Below, in pieces: positions 100 to 7,438 of a DNA stretch of 35,827 nt (positions within the stretch are counted from its first letter, which is position 1; each line of letters opens with the position of its first letter). The notes beneath the pieces are model-generated. The model searched no databases and had not been told where the DNA came from. It saw only the letters and a program-made list of their open reading frames with translations. Source of the DNA: Aphanocapsa sp. GSE-SYN-MK-11-07L (GTDB taxonomy: Bacteria; Cyanobacteriota; Cyanobacteriia; Thermosynechococcales; Thermosynechococcaceae); contig JAHHGS010000119.1 of assembly GCA_019359715.1 (NCBI GenBank), positions 1 to 35,827 on the forward strand, in the 5' to 3' direction. Both the position numbers and the translations under genes were made by a program.

Positions 100-1116
100 T
101 CATCGCAAAACTGAGATGCTCCCGATTAATTTTCGCAGTTTATACTCAAGGTTCAACCGAAGTTTAGTCCAAAAAGTAAATCGCCAACCAGACCATGCGG
201 TCATATCGAGATAGCGAAAGAAATGCTCTTTCATTGGGACATGGTCTGAGTTCCAAGGCTTTTCACCGGATACATAATGAATAATATAGGGATCTTGACT
301 GGTGAGCTCGTTGTAGCATTGTTTGGAATAAGGACTTTCCTCCCATGACTTGTATTCATAGACTCTGGCAGTAACATTCCAACGAGGATTAAGTTCTCCC
401 CATTGACCGGCAAATATAGCGTTCAAAACATCCTGATCGCCATAGATGATTTTATCTTTATATTGATTGAGGTAATTTGCAGCAGTCATAAAAACCTTTT
501 CAGCCCGCCATTTTTTGATGTTAATAACTAGGACGCCTGAATTGAAATATTTAGAATCGGGGGAAATGCCTAGCTCACGATAGTTGAGCAGCCCATTCGC
601 TGCCGAGACAGAATGCACCCAGGTATCCTGGGCTGCTAGGACGTAGTTATTATTTAAATCTGCTTGCCAAAGTTGGCCTAAATTCCCTTGAATGACTAAA
701 TCACTATCGAGGTAAATTGCCTTTTGGGCTTGCTCTGGTAAAAGTTCTGCGATTAGGAGCCGATAGTACTGGGCAATTGAAATATAATCTTTAGCCTTGC
801 CTGCTGTTACCGTGTATTGATAAGCCTGCTCAAGATTTTGGGTTAGCCCATCTGGTTTGTCGATGAAGACCACCTCACACTTTTCTGAGCTTAAGGTTTT
901 TAAGATCTTCTGCTTGTTTTTCTTGGTGATACCGCCATCAATAATAAATAATAACAGAGAAAAATCTTCCTTGAGATTCTCAATTGCTGAGCGAGCCATT
1001 ACCGATAATGGCATGGCATAGCGATCATCCGCCGCACAGACCGCAAAAATAGTTTCTTTTTCTTGAGAGGACTGCGAGGGTTTTTCAAAATTTAAGCTGT
1101 CAGTATCTACAATCAT
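100..1116 (-). CDS. GT8 family glycosyltransferase
   Basis: This 338-residue protein looks like a retaining GT-A glycosyltransferase of family 8, the group of LPS glucosyl/galactosyltransferases and GspA-like enzymes. A DSD metal/nucleotide-sugar motif sits at residues 137-139 in the context IYLDSDL. It is followed by NSGVLVINIKKWR, then GDQDVLNAIF, and near residue 280 the C-terminal HYVSGEKPWN motif (HxxGxxKPW) typical of GT8. No signal peptide or membrane segment is seen, so it probably works at the cytoplasmic membrane face on a lipid-linked or surface glycan. The ATG at 1116 has AGAGG four to five bases upstream. It is the fifth gene of the minus-strand polysaccharide series. The family is secure; donor and acceptor are unknown. 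Confidence 0.88.
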   Translation of the reverse strand: MIVDTDSLNFEKPSQSSQEKETIFAVCAADDRYAMPLSVMARSAIENLKEDFSLLLFIIDGGITKKNKQKILKTLSSEKCEVVFIDKPDGLTQNLEQAYQYTVTAGKAKDYISIAQYYRLLIAELLPEQAQKAIYLDSDLVIQGNLGQLWQADLNNNYVLAAQDTWVHSVSAANGLLNYRELGISPDSKYFNSGVLVINIKKWRAEKVFMTAANYLNQYKDKIIYGDQDVLNAIFAGQWGELNPRWNVTARVYEYKSWEESPYSKQCYNELTSQDPYIIHYVSGEKPWNSDHVPMKEHFFRYLDMTAWSGWRFTFWTKLRLNLEYKLRKLIGSISVLR

Positions 1117-1256: not shown

Positions 1257-2891
1257 CTAGGAAGAACTGGCGCGTGAATAATAGCGCATGCGCATCCATT
1301 CTGGCAGTAAAAGATTAAGCGGATTTTTTTGATATCCCAGCTTTTTCAACAACCTTAGCCATGCGCTTAACCGGGCAGTAAAAGGCATTAAGGGCAAGTT
1401 CCACTGAACCAACTGATCAAACGTGAAATCAATGTCATGTACTCGAGGCATCAATATATCTGGCTCGCCTAAACTCATCTGATCTTTCTGATTGGGAGCA
1501 GCAGAAATTTTAGATACAGTAACTGCATCGTGATAAGTTTGATCGAGAAAATTTTGCCAATGATCCTCTAGATGAGTCTCAGTGATTTTCTTTTGAGTGA
1601 TTGCCCCCAAAGACAGTCTGAATTCAGAATTCTGAATAAGGTTGGCTAAAACGGCAGTATAGTCTTCGAGATTGTTGACACGGATTAGGTTTCCGGTTAA
1701 GCCTGGCATATCTGCACCTAAAATTCCGCATGCCTCAGAGTTATAGGGATATCGACTGACTAATGGAGTACCATAACTACCTGCTTCTAACAATGAGGTA
1801 TTTGATACAAACGGAAACGAATCGACGTAGATATCAGCCGCTTGGTAGAAGACATCTGTATGTTCCGTTTCACTCAATACACGGATTCTTCTCTGTGTTT
1901 GCTCAATAGCGGGGAGCCAATCTGCTTGCTGCCCCGGTCCAATGACAATGAGCATAGCATCGGGAAATTGACTTAAAACTGGAATATGTGCATCAGCAAA
2001 ACTAAGGCCGGCTATCGTTTTATATTTAACCCTTCTGGCGATTGATAGGATCAGAATACTATTTTCGGGAATGCCAAGTTGTTGTTTTGCTTGCAACCGT
2101 GATAATTTTCGATGAGTGGGTTCTAGGATTACAGGAAGTAATACATTTCGTTCTGGTTCTATACCTCTTCGATGCCGTGCGAGTTGCATTCCAGATTCGC
2201 GCAGGCTCACGACCAAATCGCTAATTCCAATACCCGGCCAAAATAGGTGATCTGCATGATCTAGAAGAATGACCGGTGGACTGTTTTCCTTCTTGGCAAA
2301 CGCAATTACGGGGATAACATCATTGCTGTTGGTATGCAAGACAACCAAATCCGCTGTGGCAGATATTTTTCGTAATAACTGAGCCCAGCTGATCAAATTA
2401 CCAGCACTTCTATTTAACAAATGTATCTTGCCACCACTTTTTGAAATTGCATTCTGCAAGAGTTCTGGAATTTCTTTCAGATCTTGTCTTGTTAAAACAA
2501 GAGAGTGGGAACGTTCTTTGTCTTGTTGTATCCATCGCCACAGCATGCGAGAATGCCCACCAATTGACCCCATGGATGTGGCAACATGCAACACTTGCCT
2601 AATCCCATTGGGCTGAGTGTTATATGTACCATCATTCCGACTGGAGATAACATTTTCTCCAATCGAGACGAGAACCTGCTCAAGCTCTGGGCTTGAGAAC
2701 AAGCCGCAGGATTTTCCGCTTGCAAACGCTGCTGCCATTTCCCCATAGACGGCTGCCATGCGATATTGGCGATGCTTGACGTGCTTGGCAGCCTGTGCCA
2801 CCAAGCCGCGAAATCTAGCATGATTTTCTGGAATTACCTGGCGACCTTCGTCTTGCCACAGACTTAAGGTATCGCTAAACGTTTTTTGCAT
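1257..2891 (-). CDS. GT-B glycosyltransferase (group 1/GT4-like)
   Basis: The N-terminal half has a Rossmann-like block, RQVLHVATSMGSIGGHSRM, resembling the Gly-rich acceptor loop of GT4 enzymes. The C-terminal half has the donor-side fold: ILILSIARRVKYKT, then AMLIVIGPG, then a DVFYQAADIYVDSFP block followed by SLLEAGSYGTPLVSR with the family Glu. It probably adds a sugar during exopolysaccharide or glycolipid synthesis in the cytoplasm. The frame stays open to 3011, but that longer start lacks a ribosome-binding site and would overlap the upstream gene by 59 bases. The ATG at 2891 is therefore preferred, although its own AGGA is rather far upstream. The first roughly 110 residues match no fold I recognise. 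Family assignment is good; sugar specificity is unknown. Confidence 0.8.
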   Translation of the reverse strand: MQKTFSDTLSLWQDEGRQVIPENHARFRGLVAQAAKHVKHRQYRMAAVYGEMAAAFASGKSCGLFSSPELEQVLVSIGENVISSRNDGTYNTQPNGIRQVLHVATSMGSIGGHSRMLWRWIQQDKERSHSLVLTRQDLKEIPELLQNAISKSGGKIHLLNRSAGNLISWAQLLRKISATADLVVLHTNSNDVIPVIAFAKKENSPPVILLDHADHLFWPGIGISDLVVSLRESGMQLARHRRGIEPERNVLLPVILEPTHRKLSRLQAKQQLGIPENSILILSIARRVKYKTIAGLSFADAHIPVLSQFPDAMLIVIGPGQQADWLPAIEQTQRRIRVLSETEHTDVFYQAADIYVDSFPFVSNTSLLEAGSYGTPLVSRYPYNSEACGILGADMPGLTGNLIRVNNLEDYTAVLANLIQNSEFRLSLGAITQKKITETHLEDHWQNFLDQTYHDAVTVSKISAAPNQKDQMSLGEPDILMPRVHDIDFTFDQLVQWNLPLMPFTARLSAWLRLLKKLGYQKNPLNLLLPEWMRMRYYSRASSS

Positions 2892-2952
2892 TGCTCTTAG
2901 TCGTTTTCCTGAAGCTGATTTGAGTATTGCGATCTTAGTTTGACTCGTCGTT

Positions 2953-4941
2953 CTAAACAACAATTCCAGCGTCAGGCGTTTGCGGTTTGGCTCCCATATC
3001 AGCAAAGACATTCACGGTAATTTGTTTGGCACAAATATCTTCCCGAGGATCGGTCACACCATCGCTATCTAATCCCCATACCCATTGGATAGAGCCAGTA
3101 GAGAAAATCTTGGCACCACTGGCTGCTGTGTAACGCACAGCATTTGAGATCGTCGTATTAGTTCCCGGAGGAAGAGGCGGAAGCGGGCCTTGGAGTTGAA
3201 CTGGTGATTGCGATAATACAACCAAGCCCGCCGGGGTAAAGCCGTTGTTCAACACGGCATCCCACTCATAGCCCACTAAGCCTTTAAGTTTATCCCCATT
3301 CTGGAGACCTGTATGAGCGTAGTAAGGATCAGCAGCATTACTGACCACATAGTCAAAGCCATTGTAAACGTTATAACCACTCCAATCCCCAATGTATCCG
3401 ACTCCTAGCAAAGCATTCTCAGGGCGATTAACTTCAGAACTACGGAACAGCGTAGTTGCGGCAGCAGGATTCGTTTGGGCAATGGGATCGATCGACGCAC
3501 CTGTACCGATTGCAGGATAAGAATCATCCCTATAAACAGTCATCACGCGGTTAGCCTGACCACTGCTAGAGGGGTCAAACCGGACTTGCCAACAGGCAGT
3601 ATTGGCAGAGAAGAATGCCAAGTTAATGCCATTATCTCTTGCTTGTTCGACATTATTGCGCTGTTCCCTTGACCAATACTCATCATGACCTACTGATAGG
3701 AATGTCTTCTGAGAATGTAATTGCAAAGGATTGATACTCACATCCAGGTTGGTGTAGTAGGAGACATCATAACCCTGAGATTCCAGCCAGCGAATCATAT
3801 TGTATTCCCAAGTCAACGGATTGTTGTACCGTTGGGCAGGAAAAGCAGGAGTATTGTACTGGAACGGTCGGTCAAAGGATACCTGGTAGGCGCGTTGACC
3901 ATCAACATCGGTGTGTCCGTGTTCCAATCTTGCGATTATAGAGCTGAGCCGCGTCCATTTCGCAGGAATTAGGTTTTTATTCCTTACAGTACATACCAGT
4001 CTTGTAAGTATGAATCTGAGATAGATTTTCAAAAGTGCTTGCCAGCTACGATTTAGCGCTTGAATGTTAGTGGTCGTTGTAGAAGTGGGACGCACCTTAC
4101 CAGCACTATTAAAGTCATAGGTACTATAACCACCGTAGTTGTTGTAGGCTTGAGCTGTAGCAATGGCATCTTGGAATCCAATATCAGCAGGACGATTATC
4201 ATCGCGCACTACAAACTGGATATAATTCTGCTTACCAGTTCCACTGTTAGTCAACTTGGCAAAATAAAGCCCACTAGTCCAGTCCGAACCAGTTTGCAAA
4301 GTATAGGAAGTATTCCATTTACACTCAACCAGCTTAGTGCTTGGATTAACAAGTGTTGAATTTGCTTGAGTCACACCCTTAAGCCCAGCGACGCTGGCGA
4401 CAAGCCGACCGCCAGTTCCAGCGTAGTAACCCAATCGATAGACATCAATCTGGTATTGTCCAGCTTGCTCAAGAGAGACCTTGAAGTTGATGGCTTGTCC
4501 TTTGTTGATACTTGTGACATCGGCATAGCCAAGGATTTCTGTGGTTGCTTGACTAGTGCTGAGAATTCTCCAAGCAGTTGTCCCAGGCTTTTGATTTTCC
4601 AGGACGATCGCATTTTGCGCCGCTACAGTCACTCCAGAACTGGCAACGACTTTGCTGCTGCCCAATGAATCGACGCAGCTTGCCAACATCCGCACCTGCT
4701 GCTCGAGTAGAAAATCAGTTAATTTTAGTGACCTCGCTGTTTCTCCAACAATATCGATCCAATTGCCTTTTGCTGACTGTTGCCATTGGTAGTTAACAAC
4801 CGCACCGGCTAAAGTAAAACTATCCTTGTCGAAAATACCTGCAATTAAGGTATGTCCAACTGTAGCACTCCCCCTGAGAAAAATAAGATAAGGACTTTTT
4901 TCTTGCCCGAGGTCAATTAAATCATCAGAGATTTTATCCAT
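2953..4941 (-). CDS. N,N-dimethylformamidase-beta-like protein with Ig-like N-terminus
   Basis: Residues 1 to about 110 look like one degenerate Ig-like repeat of the kind strung together in giant cyanobacterial surface proteins: GSATVG, then VNYQWQQSAKGNW, then LKLTD. From about residue 115 the protein matches the family related to the large subunit of N,N-dimethylformamidase: GTTAWRI, IDVYRLGYYAGTGGRLV, AYNNYGGYSTYDFNS, YQVSFDRPF, LSVGHDEYWS, FFSANTACWQVRF, and a C-terminal FSTGSIQW. No signal peptide or membrane segment is visible. The frame opens at a TTG (4947); ATG 4941 is preferred. A segment around 3905-4050 has an odd composition between two conserved blocks. The reaction is unknown: most family members are uncharacterised, and the position here suggests a glycan or surface-polymer role. 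Confidence 0.75.
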   Translation of the reverse strand: MDKISDDLIDLGQEKSPYLIFLRGSATVGHTLIAGIFDKDSFTLAGAVVNYQWQQSAKGNWIDIVGETARSLKLTDFLLEQQVRMLASCVDSLGSSKVVASSGVTVAAQNAIVLENQKPGTTAWRILSTSQATTEILGYADVTSINKGQAINFKVSLEQAGQYQIDVYRLGYYAGTGGRLVASVAGLKGVTQANSTLVNPSTKLVECKWNTSYTLQTGSDWTSGLYFAKLTNSGTGKQNYIQFVVRDDNRPADIGFQDAIATAQAYNNYGGYSTYDFNSAGKVRPTSTTTTNIQALNRSWQALLKIYLRFILTRLVCTVRNKNLIPAKWTRLSSIIARLEHGHTDVDGQRAYQVSFDRPFQYNTPAFPAQRYNNPLTWEYNMIRWLESQGYDVSYYTNLDVSINPLQLHSQKTFLSVGHDEYWSREQRNNVEQARDNGINLAFFSANTACWQVRFDPSSSGQANRVMTVYRDDSYPAIGTGASIDPIAQTNPAAATTLFRSSEVNRPENALLGVGYIGDWSGYNVYNGFDYVVSNAADPYYAHTGLQNGDKLKGLVGYEWDAVLNNGFTPAGLVVLSQSPVQLQGPLPPLPPGTNTTISNAVRYTAASGAKIFSTGSIQWVWGLDSDGVTDPREDICAKQITVNVFADMGAKPQTPDAGIVV

Positions 4942-5012
4942 ACTCAATTTAACGTAGCGATTTCGGTGAGTGCTGAAACAGAAAAGTTACGCAAATTATT
5001 TTTGTAAGACTC

Positions 5013-5801
5013 CTAAGCTTCTAGTGAGAAATTTTCAGCACGCAGAACTAGAGCTTGCGGACTAGTACCCGAACTGGGCATCATTGTTACCGTTTCTAGG
5101 CGCAACCGTAAATTAGACTGATCTTCCCCCACAAATGGTTGCAAATCACTCACTCGGAAGCGTACTTTTTCTAGTATTTTCATCGCTCCTTCTGAAGGTG
5201 TTTGGGGCAACATAATCGCAAAAACATTTTCTTGAATCCGTGCGGTCAGATCTGTAGAACGGCTGCCACAGGAACGGATTAACTGAGAAACCTCGATTAG
5301 AAACTCATCCCTAGAAGGCTGCTCATGGGCTGATTTATAGTCATTCCAACCGTCAAAAGCACAAAGTACTAGTGAAATTGGCTTTTGTTCTCGTTGCATA
5401 CGCTTCCATTCCTGCAATAAGAGAGACTCAAAACGGCCTCGATTTGCAACTTGAGTCAGACGATCTCTAGTGAATAGCTTCTCAACCTGTAGATATACAT
5501 CAATTTCATGCAAAGCATCTCCCAACTTCGCAATGATATTTTTTACCGATTCAAGCCTGTTTTTTCCAGGAATCGAGTTAATCGATACTGGCCCCTGAAG
5601 CGAAATCTCAGCCCGCCATATATCTGAGGCGTTGCTATAGTATTCAACTTCATTCACATGACATTGCAAGCAGAAAATAATCTTATCTCCATCTGCAAGT
5701 TGTCCTTGTCCAGTCATTGTGCCAACAACACCTTCAATGGGAGCACTAATGGCAAATTCATGTTCCCAGTCAATGTTAGTGAAATCCAGTGTTGTCCCCA
5801 T
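5013..5801 (-). CDS. degenerate GGDEF-domain protein, likely c-di-GMP receptor rather than cyclase
   Basis: Residues 1-105 are an unrecognised domain. Residues 112-262 align with GGDEF domains: DRLTQVANRGRF matches DxLTxxxNRxxF, and EWKRMQREQKPISLVL is typical of cyanobacterial cyclases. The active-site signature GGDEF is replaced by QENVF (residues 190-194), and the first metal-binding Asp of DxD is lost (CAFD, 147-150), so cyclase activity is very unlikely. The inhibitory-site pattern RxxD is present as RSTD (181-184), exactly five residues before the altered signature as in true cyclases. This suggests binding of c-di-GMP, as in PelD-type receptors. The ATG at 5801 has GGGAG eight bases upstream. 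It lies between glycosyltransferase genes and probably regulates polysaccharide production; this role is inferred. Confidence 0.78.
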   Translation of the reverse strand: MGTTLDFTNIDWEHEFAISAPIEGVVGTMTGQGQLADGDKIIFCLQCHVNEVEYYSNASDIWRAEISLQGPVSINSIPGKNRLESVKNIIAKLGDALHEIDVYLQVEKLFTRDRLTQVANRGRFESLLLQEWKRMQREQKPISLVLCAFDGWNDYKSAHEQPSRDEFLIEVSQLIRSCGSRSTDLTARIQENVFAIMLPQTPSEGAMKILEKVRFRVSDLQPFVGEDQSNLRLRLETVTMMPSSGTSPQALVLRAENFSLEA

Positions 5802-6598
5802 ATTTTTTGCTCCCTCGTTAAAGCATTAAGAAATCCCTTGAGTCCAAAGCCTATCTAAGAAACTACTCTTTCTCCCCAGCCAATTTCACTCTTGGTAAAA
5901 GCTTAACAGTGTCAAGTTATTTAAGATTCAGACCAATGGAAAATAGGGATCAAAATAATCTTTGAGGCTTGCTTTTCATACATTGTAATTTTACAGACCA
6001 AACGAATACTTCATGCTTAATCGGGTCAAGATTCCGAAGCAGGGTTTAATCAGAGTACGTACCGATCGCACCAAAAAGATTCTACCCATTCTCCTTCTAA
6101 AGGAACTGCTGTCCGTGTTGCTACCAGTAATAACGCATTTTCGCGAGGAACACCTCTCTGCTGTAATTGGTTGGCGCAATCTGCAAACAATCGATATTTA
6201 GGGCTAACGCTATCGAGATGACATTCATGAATAGGACAATAAATTTCACGCCGCTTTGAGCGCTTCCGATTTCGATCGCACCTTTTCTGCAATTCGACCT
6301 CCCGCACTAATATATCAAAAAAGATAGGAAGATTACGTTGGAGGAACTGAGATCTATACTGACCGTCAAAGCTCTCTCCTTAATAACAAGTGAAGTATTC
6401 AGTTGTAAAAACATGATCCCTTAGTTCATTTTCAGTTTCTTATTGTTTTTACCCATCGCAGCTTTTCTTAGGTTACCCATTTCTTGGGTAAAACATAACA
6501 CGGCACAGAAATATTTAATTTATGCCACAGGTTCGCCCGCGTCCCAACAATCTAAATCAAAGTGTTTTCAGCAGAGATCTCAGTGACTAAACAGTTGC
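5802..6598. other. intergenic stretch around the truncated gene
   Basis: Apart from the remnant at 6050-6307, I see no gene here. A small inverted repeat, TTACCCA at 6473-6479 and TGGGTAA at 6485-6491, could form a seven-base-pair stem with a five-base loop downstream of the WecG-family gene. It has no T-run and is not a convincing terminator. Confidence 0.5.
6050..6307 (-). pseudogene. truncated small cyanobacterial Zn-binding-like protein remnant
   Basis: An 85-codon minus-strand frame carries CPIHECHLDSVSPKY, then QLQQRGVPRENALLLVATR, then PLEGEWVESFWC. From memory, this resembles the N-terminal half of a conserved cyanobacterial protein of about 130-150 residues that begins with a basic stretch, a CPxHxCxLDS motif and EGEW.EAFWC, then continues with a second Cys and a WYHV block. 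Here the frame ends right after WCDRYVL, and the downstream half is not visible in any frame. GGGAGG followed by a TTG at 6292 would be the natural start. I read it as a 3'-truncated gene. It could still be expressed as a short protein. Confidence 0.45.
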
Positions 6599-7438
6599 TT
6601 ATTTCCTGTTATTGAGAACCACCTCAATTGCCGAGCCAGTTAAACGTTTCCTAGCTGGGAGTGGTTGAGATAGGTTTGCAGTACCAAGTAATTGCTTTAG
6701 AGCCAACCATGCAAAAACAGGAATAGTAGTGCCATAGCGAATCCACAAGCGACGGGGTTCTTGAACTAGCCGGAACAACCATTCAAACCCATTCTTCTGA
6801 ATCCAGCCGGGAGCCCGTTGCTGTAGACCAGCATATATCGGAAAAGCTGCCCCTACACCAATCATCACTAGCTTAACCTGCTCTTTGTGTTTCGCCATCC
6901 ACTTCTCCTGTTTAGGACAGCCCAATGAAACAAACACAATCCCGGCTCCACTTGAGTTAAGAGTATTTACTACTGACTCGTCTTCAGCAGACGTGAGTGG
7001 GCGAAATGGAAGCGGTAGCATACCGGCAATTTTCAAATCAGGAAACTCATGTTCCAAACGCTGGTGCATCCGGTCTAAAATTGCTTGCTCTGATCCAAGA
7101 AAGAACAAGCTCAAACCTTCTGCAGAAGCACGTTGACACAACGCAACAAACAGATCTGGCCCTGCAACTCGCTCTGGGTGCAAAACCCCCATTGATCGTA
7201 GCATCCAGACCAAGGGCATCCCATCAGGAGTAAGCAAGCTTCCTTGTTGCAGCACATCAGCAAACTCGTTATTCCGATGAGCTTCGACAAGCATGTGAGT
7301 ATTGGCAATGCAAACCATTTTCCCTTCGCCCTCCTTTGCCCAACCTAGCAACAGATCAACTACCTGACGAAAGGGCAAAGCAGAAATGGGGAAACCCAAG
7401 ACAAGTTCAGTACGCAAAAACCTTTGTATTCTAACCAT
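6599..7438 (-). CDS. WecG/TagA/CpsF family glycosyltransferase (GT26)
   Basis: This 279-residue protein is a GT26 transferase, the family that adds the second sugar (for example UDP-ManNAcA or ManNAc) to an undecaprenyl-linked intermediate in enterobacterial common antigen, teichoic acid or capsule synthesis. Diagnostic blocks are VCIANTHMLVEA, LLTPDGMPLVWMLR, RVAGPDLF, LSLFFLGSEQA, FVSLGCPKQEKWM, and VMIGVGAAFPIYAGLQQRAPGWIQKNG with the family Gly-rich site, then GFEWLFRLVQEPRRLWIRY. The C-terminal basic/hydrophobic tail probably docks on the membrane. The ATG at 7438 has GAGG about twelve bases upstream. It is the first gene of the minus-strand polysaccharide series and faces the Wzc-like gene across a long spacer. 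The exact sugar is unknown. Confidence 0.92.
   Translation of the reverse strand: MVRIQRFLRTELVLGFPISALPFRQVVDLLLGWAKEGEGKMVCIANTHMLVEAHRNNEFADVLQQGSLLTPDGMPLVWMLRSMGVLHPERVAGPDLFVALCQRASAEGLSLFFLGSEQAILDRMHQRLEHEFPDLKIAGMLPLPFRPLTSAEDESVVNTLNSSGAGIVFVSLGCPKQEKWMAKHKEQVKLVMIGVGAAFPIYAGLQQRAPGWIQKNGFEWLFRLVQEPRRLWIRYGTTIPVFAWLALKQLLGTANLSQPLPARKRLTGSAIEVVLNNRK

Follow-up and report, generated by a model that had tools for sequence, protein, structure and literature searches.

A cyanobacterial protein with a catalytically dead GGDEF domain and a retained inhibitory site, a probable receptor for c-di-GMP

The stretch of DNA analysed here (35,827 nucleotides, contig JAHHGS010000119.1 of assembly GCA_019359715.1, Aphanocapsa sp. 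GSE-SYN-MK-11-07L, order Thermosynechococcales; hereafter the window) encodes a 262-amino-acid (aa) protein, P0001, whose GGDEF domain resembles that of WspR, a response-regulator diguanylate cyclase of Pseudomonas. We propose, with a probability of roughly 0.6, that this protein is a receptor for cyclic di-GMP (c-di-GMP) derived from a dead cyclase of the WspR type, and that it would act as a dimer switch through a linker to its N-terminal domain. The features of the gene are as follows:

5013..5801, minus strand: gene of the degenerate-GGDEF protein P0001, 262 aa, intact open reading frame with ATG start; stop codon TAG at 5013-5015
5586..5801, minus strand: N-terminal domain, residues 1-72, unnamed family of small (~110 aa) cyanobacterial proteins
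5475..5558, minus strand: helical linker to the GGDEF domain, residues 82-109, signal-helix-like; helices 82-98 and 101-109 in the AlphaFold2 model
5016..5474, minus strand: degenerate GGDEF domain of the WspR type, residues 110-262, without the C-terminal AKxxGR tail (PF00990, E=1.7e-23)
5391..5393, minus strand: codon of R137, the second arginine of the inhibitory site (I-site), equivalent to WspR R198 in a gap-free alignment
5358..5360, minus strand: codon of A148, at the metal-binding Asp position of active cyclases (alignment)
5250..5261, minus strand: R181-S-T-D184, the primary I-site RxxD, equivalent to WspR R242xxD245 (sequence, alignment)
5220..5234, minus strand: Q190-E-N-V-F194, at the position of GG(D/E)EF (sequence, alignment)

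GGDEF is the sole Pfam domain recognised in the protein. Its best sequence match in the PDB is WspR (E~1e-18), with the I-site region aligned without gaps. An earlier note on this DNA had read the protein as a dead cyclase with an I-site and proposed that its structure be predicted. In the AlphaFold2 model, for which 27 sequences from the order served as input, the GGDEF fold was obtained with confidence: residues 110-260 mostly have a predicted local distance difference test (pLDDT) value above 90, and the best Foldseek match is WspR (3bre, E=7e-16). Model confidence is low for residues 92-105 of the linker.

Full-length orthologs were detected in only two of 29 genomes of the order: the metagenome-assembled genome (MAG) RU_4_10 of the Acaryochloridaceae (L007; 46% identical) and a MAG labelled Thermosynechococcus sp. 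WC_1 (L008; 42% identical). Contig searches with the single 262-aa protein found no relatives, and those with the three-row alignment recovered the two orthologs and, beyond them, a single distant GGDEF. The three proteins have a common architecture with N-terminal domains that are ~50-57% identical, and they form one clade on a long branch of the tree (support 100/96). A contig of the WC_1 MAG (L062, JAGVDA010000343.1) belongs to a genus group, g4, shared with an Acaryochloridaceae MAG; the Thermosynechococcus label is therefore probably wrong.

Alignment to 20 live WspR-like GGDEF domains of this order shows that the WspR-type active site of the 262-aa protein is destroyed and its enzyme part is dead. 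Namely, the metal-binding Asp is replaced by A148 and GGEE by QENV, as the earlier note had recognised, while the substrate positions 153, 156, and 157, which are Lys, Asn, and Asp in the live domains, are N, K, and S here. The conserved YxAKxxGR tail with its Lys and Arg residues is absent: the TAG codon falls at the conserved Lys of AK, and the Pfam GGDEF profile continues past this stop. Both orthologs lack the same tail, their alignment ending two residues earlier than the 262-aa protein, and carry the ruined signatures QDQMF and QDHLF. None of the 11 catalytic positions survives in all three orthologs. With QENVF in place of GG(D/E)EF and A148 in place of the metal-binding Asp, a live WspR-type diguanylate cyclase is ruled out.

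The product-binding residues had a different fate. The full WspR triad R198/R242/D245 is present as R137/R181/D184. Residues 181-194 read RSTD-LTARI-QENVF (window 5261-5220), so that RSTD stands exactly five residues ahead of the altered signature, the spacing of true cyclases to which attention had been drawn before. Since almost every active GGDEF of this genome has RxxD, as do unrelated dead ones, this motif alone says little, and its spacing is inherited, leaving no coincidence to explain. The alignment to WspR is gap-free, and R137 thus corresponds to R198; as it is retained beside RSTD, the whole triad is in place. R137 is invariant in the three orthologs and in the 20 active homologs. 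Conservation of RSTD in homologs was also checked, and the motif reads RPSD in both orthologs, which retain R137, R181, and D184. In the other dead GGDEFs of these genomes (L025, L030, and L005), RxxD is retained and position 137 is occupied by Q, Q, and A, respectively; among the dead domains compared, only the clade of three orthologs has kept the clamp arginine. On these alignments, the informative point is that a complete I-site including R137 persisted in three divergent orthologs (triad 3/3, catalytic set 0/11) after catalysis was lost, which strengthens the original reading of a dead cyclase with an I-site. Of 55 positions conserved in the 20 live homologs, only 19 survive in all three orthologs, the triad among them (hypergeometric 0.037), and the contrast between triad and catalytic set gives a Fisher value of 0.003.

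Work on WspR indicates what this site can do. Both R198A and R242A variants purify nucleotide-free, so that both arginines are needed; R198, from a neighbouring domain, contacts the nucleotide held by the other domain; and the active-site mutant GGAAF still binds added c-di-GMP (PMC2270323). WspR is the closest GGDEF by sequence and fold, with an identical I-site triad, but WspR carries a receiver domain and is catalytically live, whereas the 262-aa protein has lost catalysis and has an unrelated N-terminal domain. By analogy, RSTD (R181/D184) of one GGDEF domain would hold an intercalated dimer of c-di-GMP, with R137 of a neighbouring GGDEF domain acting as the clamp, as in WspR. The signal could come from the other GGDEF proteins of the cell, of which ~17 look catalytically normal in the genome. 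Binding would then alter how two receptor molecules pair, and the helical linker 82-109 would relay this change to the N-terminal domain. We infer that the latter serves as an output or adaptor in contact with a partner, for which an envelope-glycan enzyme is plausible.

Degenerate GGDEFs that act as receptors for exopolysaccharide (EPS) synthesis are known: PssE, PelD, and YdaK (PMC4125290, PMC8461298, PMC9800504). PssE of Listeria monocytogenes is the I-site receptor of the pssA-E EPS operon; its GGDEF is likewise degenerate (DKDDA), with RxxD five residues upstream, and it binds c-di-GMP with a dissociation constant of 0.8 uM and a 2:1 stoichiometry, which fits an intercalated dimer (PMC4125290). 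Its own EPS operon depends on PssE, whereas the 262-aa protein has no conserved glycan operon and a different partner domain. YdaK of Bacillus (ydaJKLMN EPS cluster), which is encoded with EPS enzymes and has primary and secondary inhibitory sites in a degenerate GGDEF (PMC9800504), is a membrane protein without an N-terminal domain of the cyanobacterial type. PelD, the receptor of Pel polysaccharide synthesis, binds a c-di-GMP dimer via RxxD of a degenerate GGDEF, and its gene adjoins glycosyltransferase genes (PMC8461298). It has four transmembrane helices and a GAF domain, and its I-site is completed by R402 and by R161 of GAF, in contrast to the WspR-type R198 equivalent found here. In the 262-aa protein, no Pfam match to GAF and no hydrophobic segments or transmembrane helices were found. 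The comparison with PelD made in the earlier note thus holds as a mode of action, but membership of the PelD family is ruled out: GAF and membrane helices are missing, and it is an arginine of the WspR type that completes the I-site. Identity as a PilZ protein was also set aside.

Taken from its sequence, the 262-aa protein is probably a degenerate-GGDEF receptor for c-di-GMP in the mode of PelD, PssE, and YdaK, with a new partner domain. The kind of receptor is known; the architecture and the N-terminal domain family are undescribed in the libraries and literature consulted on this point. Few c-di-GMP receptors are known from cyanobacteria, although cyclases abound in these genomes. In the literature found, only the effector CdgR has been studied in detail (PMC13075795); it acts via the transcription factor DevH and not through a glycan linkage, and an I-site mechanism of the GGDEF kind is not described for it. 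A dead cyclase whose product-binding site has stayed whole in three divergent lineages lends itself as a receptor candidate, and the fused domain provides a first hint at what an unnamed family of small cyanobacterial proteins may do.

The N-terminal region had been described as unrecognised. It remains without a match in Pfam, NCBIfam, or PDB, but relatives do exist. A profile built on residues 1-105 from all three orthologs matches ~70 residues of small (~110 aa) cyanobacterial proteins; after one iteration, matches occurred in 47 of 390 sampled genomes, with at most five copies each. Nearly all lie in frames of 80-170 residues. The family is otherwise stand-alone; the fusion to GGDEF was seen in the three orthologs only. 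A profile-profile comparison to the stand-alone members alone gave 99% probability over residues 1-67. The stand-alone family motif is H-D-[YF]-T ... MT-x-x-G ... GD-x-I-x-L ... V-x-x-I-D-YY-x-x-P-x-DMW-x-A-L (examples: L034:1480-1737, L036:1480-1716, and L045:1501-1725), and the 262-aa protein carries MT-x-x-G ... GD-x-I ... V-x-E-[IV]-[DE]-YY ... D-x-W-x-A. A joint alignment of N-terminal domains and GGDEFs misaligned the stand-alone proteins, and this alignment did not serve as input for modelling. CdgR was considered as an identity for the N-terminal domain; PMC13075795 offers no pointer to it, and no sequence comparison was made.

The neighbours of the gene include glycosyltransferases:

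6599..7438, minus strand: WecG/TagA/CpsF-family glycosyltransferase, upstream on the same strand (PF03808, 8.6e-61)
2953..4947, minus strand: DMFA2_C-domain protein, next gene downstream, 65 bp from the stop codon of the GGDEF gene (PF20254, 6e-105)
1257..3011, minus strand: glycosyltransferase (Glycos_transf_1, Pfam), overlapping the DMFA2_C gene
100..1116, minus strand: family-8 glycosyltransferase, next downstream (PF01501, 9e-53)

A divergent Wzc-like gene is also located upstream. The suggestion that the protein lets c-di-GMP control the glycan made by these genes is speculative; a link to glycan genes is partly supported, and what support there is comes from the N-terminal domain family. 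When all loci of this family were compared with all PF03808 genes in 40 genomes, five of 68 loci, the window included, lay within 1 kb of a WecG gene (0.14 expected; Poisson 4e-7), an over-representation of about 35-fold. With the window excluded, the probability of at least four linked loci is 1.4e-5 (Poisson). In L128 and L129, the gene of the domain heads a syntenic cluster of WecG, GDP-mannose dehydratase, and a UbiA-type prenyltransferase; these two may represent one event, and three independent events beside the window would have a chance of ~4e-4 by our own arithmetic on the same expectation. Gene orientation and order vary among the linked loci, which therefore represent a neighbourhood and not a single operon. 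The WecG-adjacent domains form no clade with the fused ones in the tree. Outside the WecG subset, most neighbourhoods are lineage-specific (dephospho-CoA-kinase-like, histidine kinase, and YfiH-like genes, named by eye from sequence), so that the family as a whole is no glycan-operon family. It is a tentative and somewhat doubtful idea that the small domain is an envelope-glycan regulator or adaptor, which in one lineage became fused to a dead WspR domain with a complete I-site and came under c-di-GMP control. If true, this would be a route from c-di-GMP to glycan that involves neither PilZ nor PelD.

Several observations weigh against the receptor proposal or its extension to glycans. RxxD, which persists in other kinds of dead GGDEFs, may be partly structural. 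K212 occupies what we take to be the position of PleD R390, although WspR likewise has a Lys there. Modelled alone, the N-terminal domain reached a pLDDT of only 69 and gave no meaningful Foldseek match. The hypergeometric and Fisher values for the triad are modest evidence because they rest on three related rows of one family with shared ancestry and on a catalytic set of our choosing. The dead GGDEF might be a ligand-free dimerisation scaffold that, for example, pairs with live cyclases of the WspR kind or keeps two N-terminal domains together, and in which the I-site face is retained as a protein-protein contact and the N-terminal domain works alone. RxxD is indeed present in all six dead GGDEFs examined, three of which lack the clamp arginine, and a domain that is normally stand-alone should be able to work without GGDEF. 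We regard this explanation as unlikely: it would be wasteful to use a complete signal-binding domain as a scaffold, and WspR R198, whose counterpart survives in none of the compared dead domains outside this clade, contacts the nucleotide of the neighbouring domain (PMC2270323). Decay of a WspR-like cyclase gene into a pseudogene would account for the loss of the catalytic site and the C-terminal tail, with a stop at a conserved Lys position. This is very improbable, since the reading frame is intact in all three lineages (42-46% identical), which share the architecture, N-terminal domains of ~50-57% identity, and a specific subset of conserved residues.

It is nearly an even question whether a c-di-GMP-sensing protein has anything to do with the adjoining glycan genes or occupies its position incidentally; the latter is a sub-case of the receptor reading, and the two estimates overlap. 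The WecG gene is 0.8 kb away, and its order with the N-terminal domain gene is not fixed. Conserved linkage to polysaccharide genes is absent in both orthologs: the fused gene in L062 precedes a methyltransferase gene and an ATP-synthase operon, and that in L061 adjoins a YyaL-like gene (all named from sequence). Within the order, the pair of DMFA2_C and glycosyltransferase genes is confined to this genome, where its second copy, on contig C22, lacks a dead GGDEF. The 35-fold excess of N-terminal domain loci near WecG and the clusters headed by this domain in L128 and L129 stand against mere coincidence. The glycan control device put forward in the earlier note is accordingly left with weak support, which comes from the above-chance linkage of the domain family to WecG-type glycosyltransferases and not from the orthologs or the genome-specific downstream genes.

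The 0.8-kb gap between the WecG and GGDEF genes (5802-6598) had no Rfam match; promoter-like sites were no commoner there than in shuffled sequences, and terminator-like sites numbered two against 1.1 expected. It contains an open frame of 109 codons (6053-6379, minus strand), which has no Pfam or PHROGs match and may be a gene remnant.

Three further degenerate GGDEFs were seen. The frame L005:1438-2283 (minus strand), on contig C158 of the same genome, has RPKD and has lost both the signature and the clamp Arg; the N-terminal region of its product is helical and HTH-like (helix-turn-helix) by eye, and it is possibly a regulator. L025:1441-2115 and L030:1441-2109 (both minus strand), from two genomes of one genus, are short dead GGDEFs (HGDTF) with RSxD kept and Gln at the position of WspR R198.

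The paralogous DMFA2_C-glycosyltransferase pair on contig C22 is located at about 84000-91600. Its DMFA2_C frame is 1753 aa long and has Ig-like units repeated in the N-terminal part, and its glycosyltransferase is 52% identical to that of the window. Although shorter, the DMFA2_C copy in the window has ~62 residues (287-348; window 3904-4089) inserted in frame that are without counterpart in the C22 paralog.
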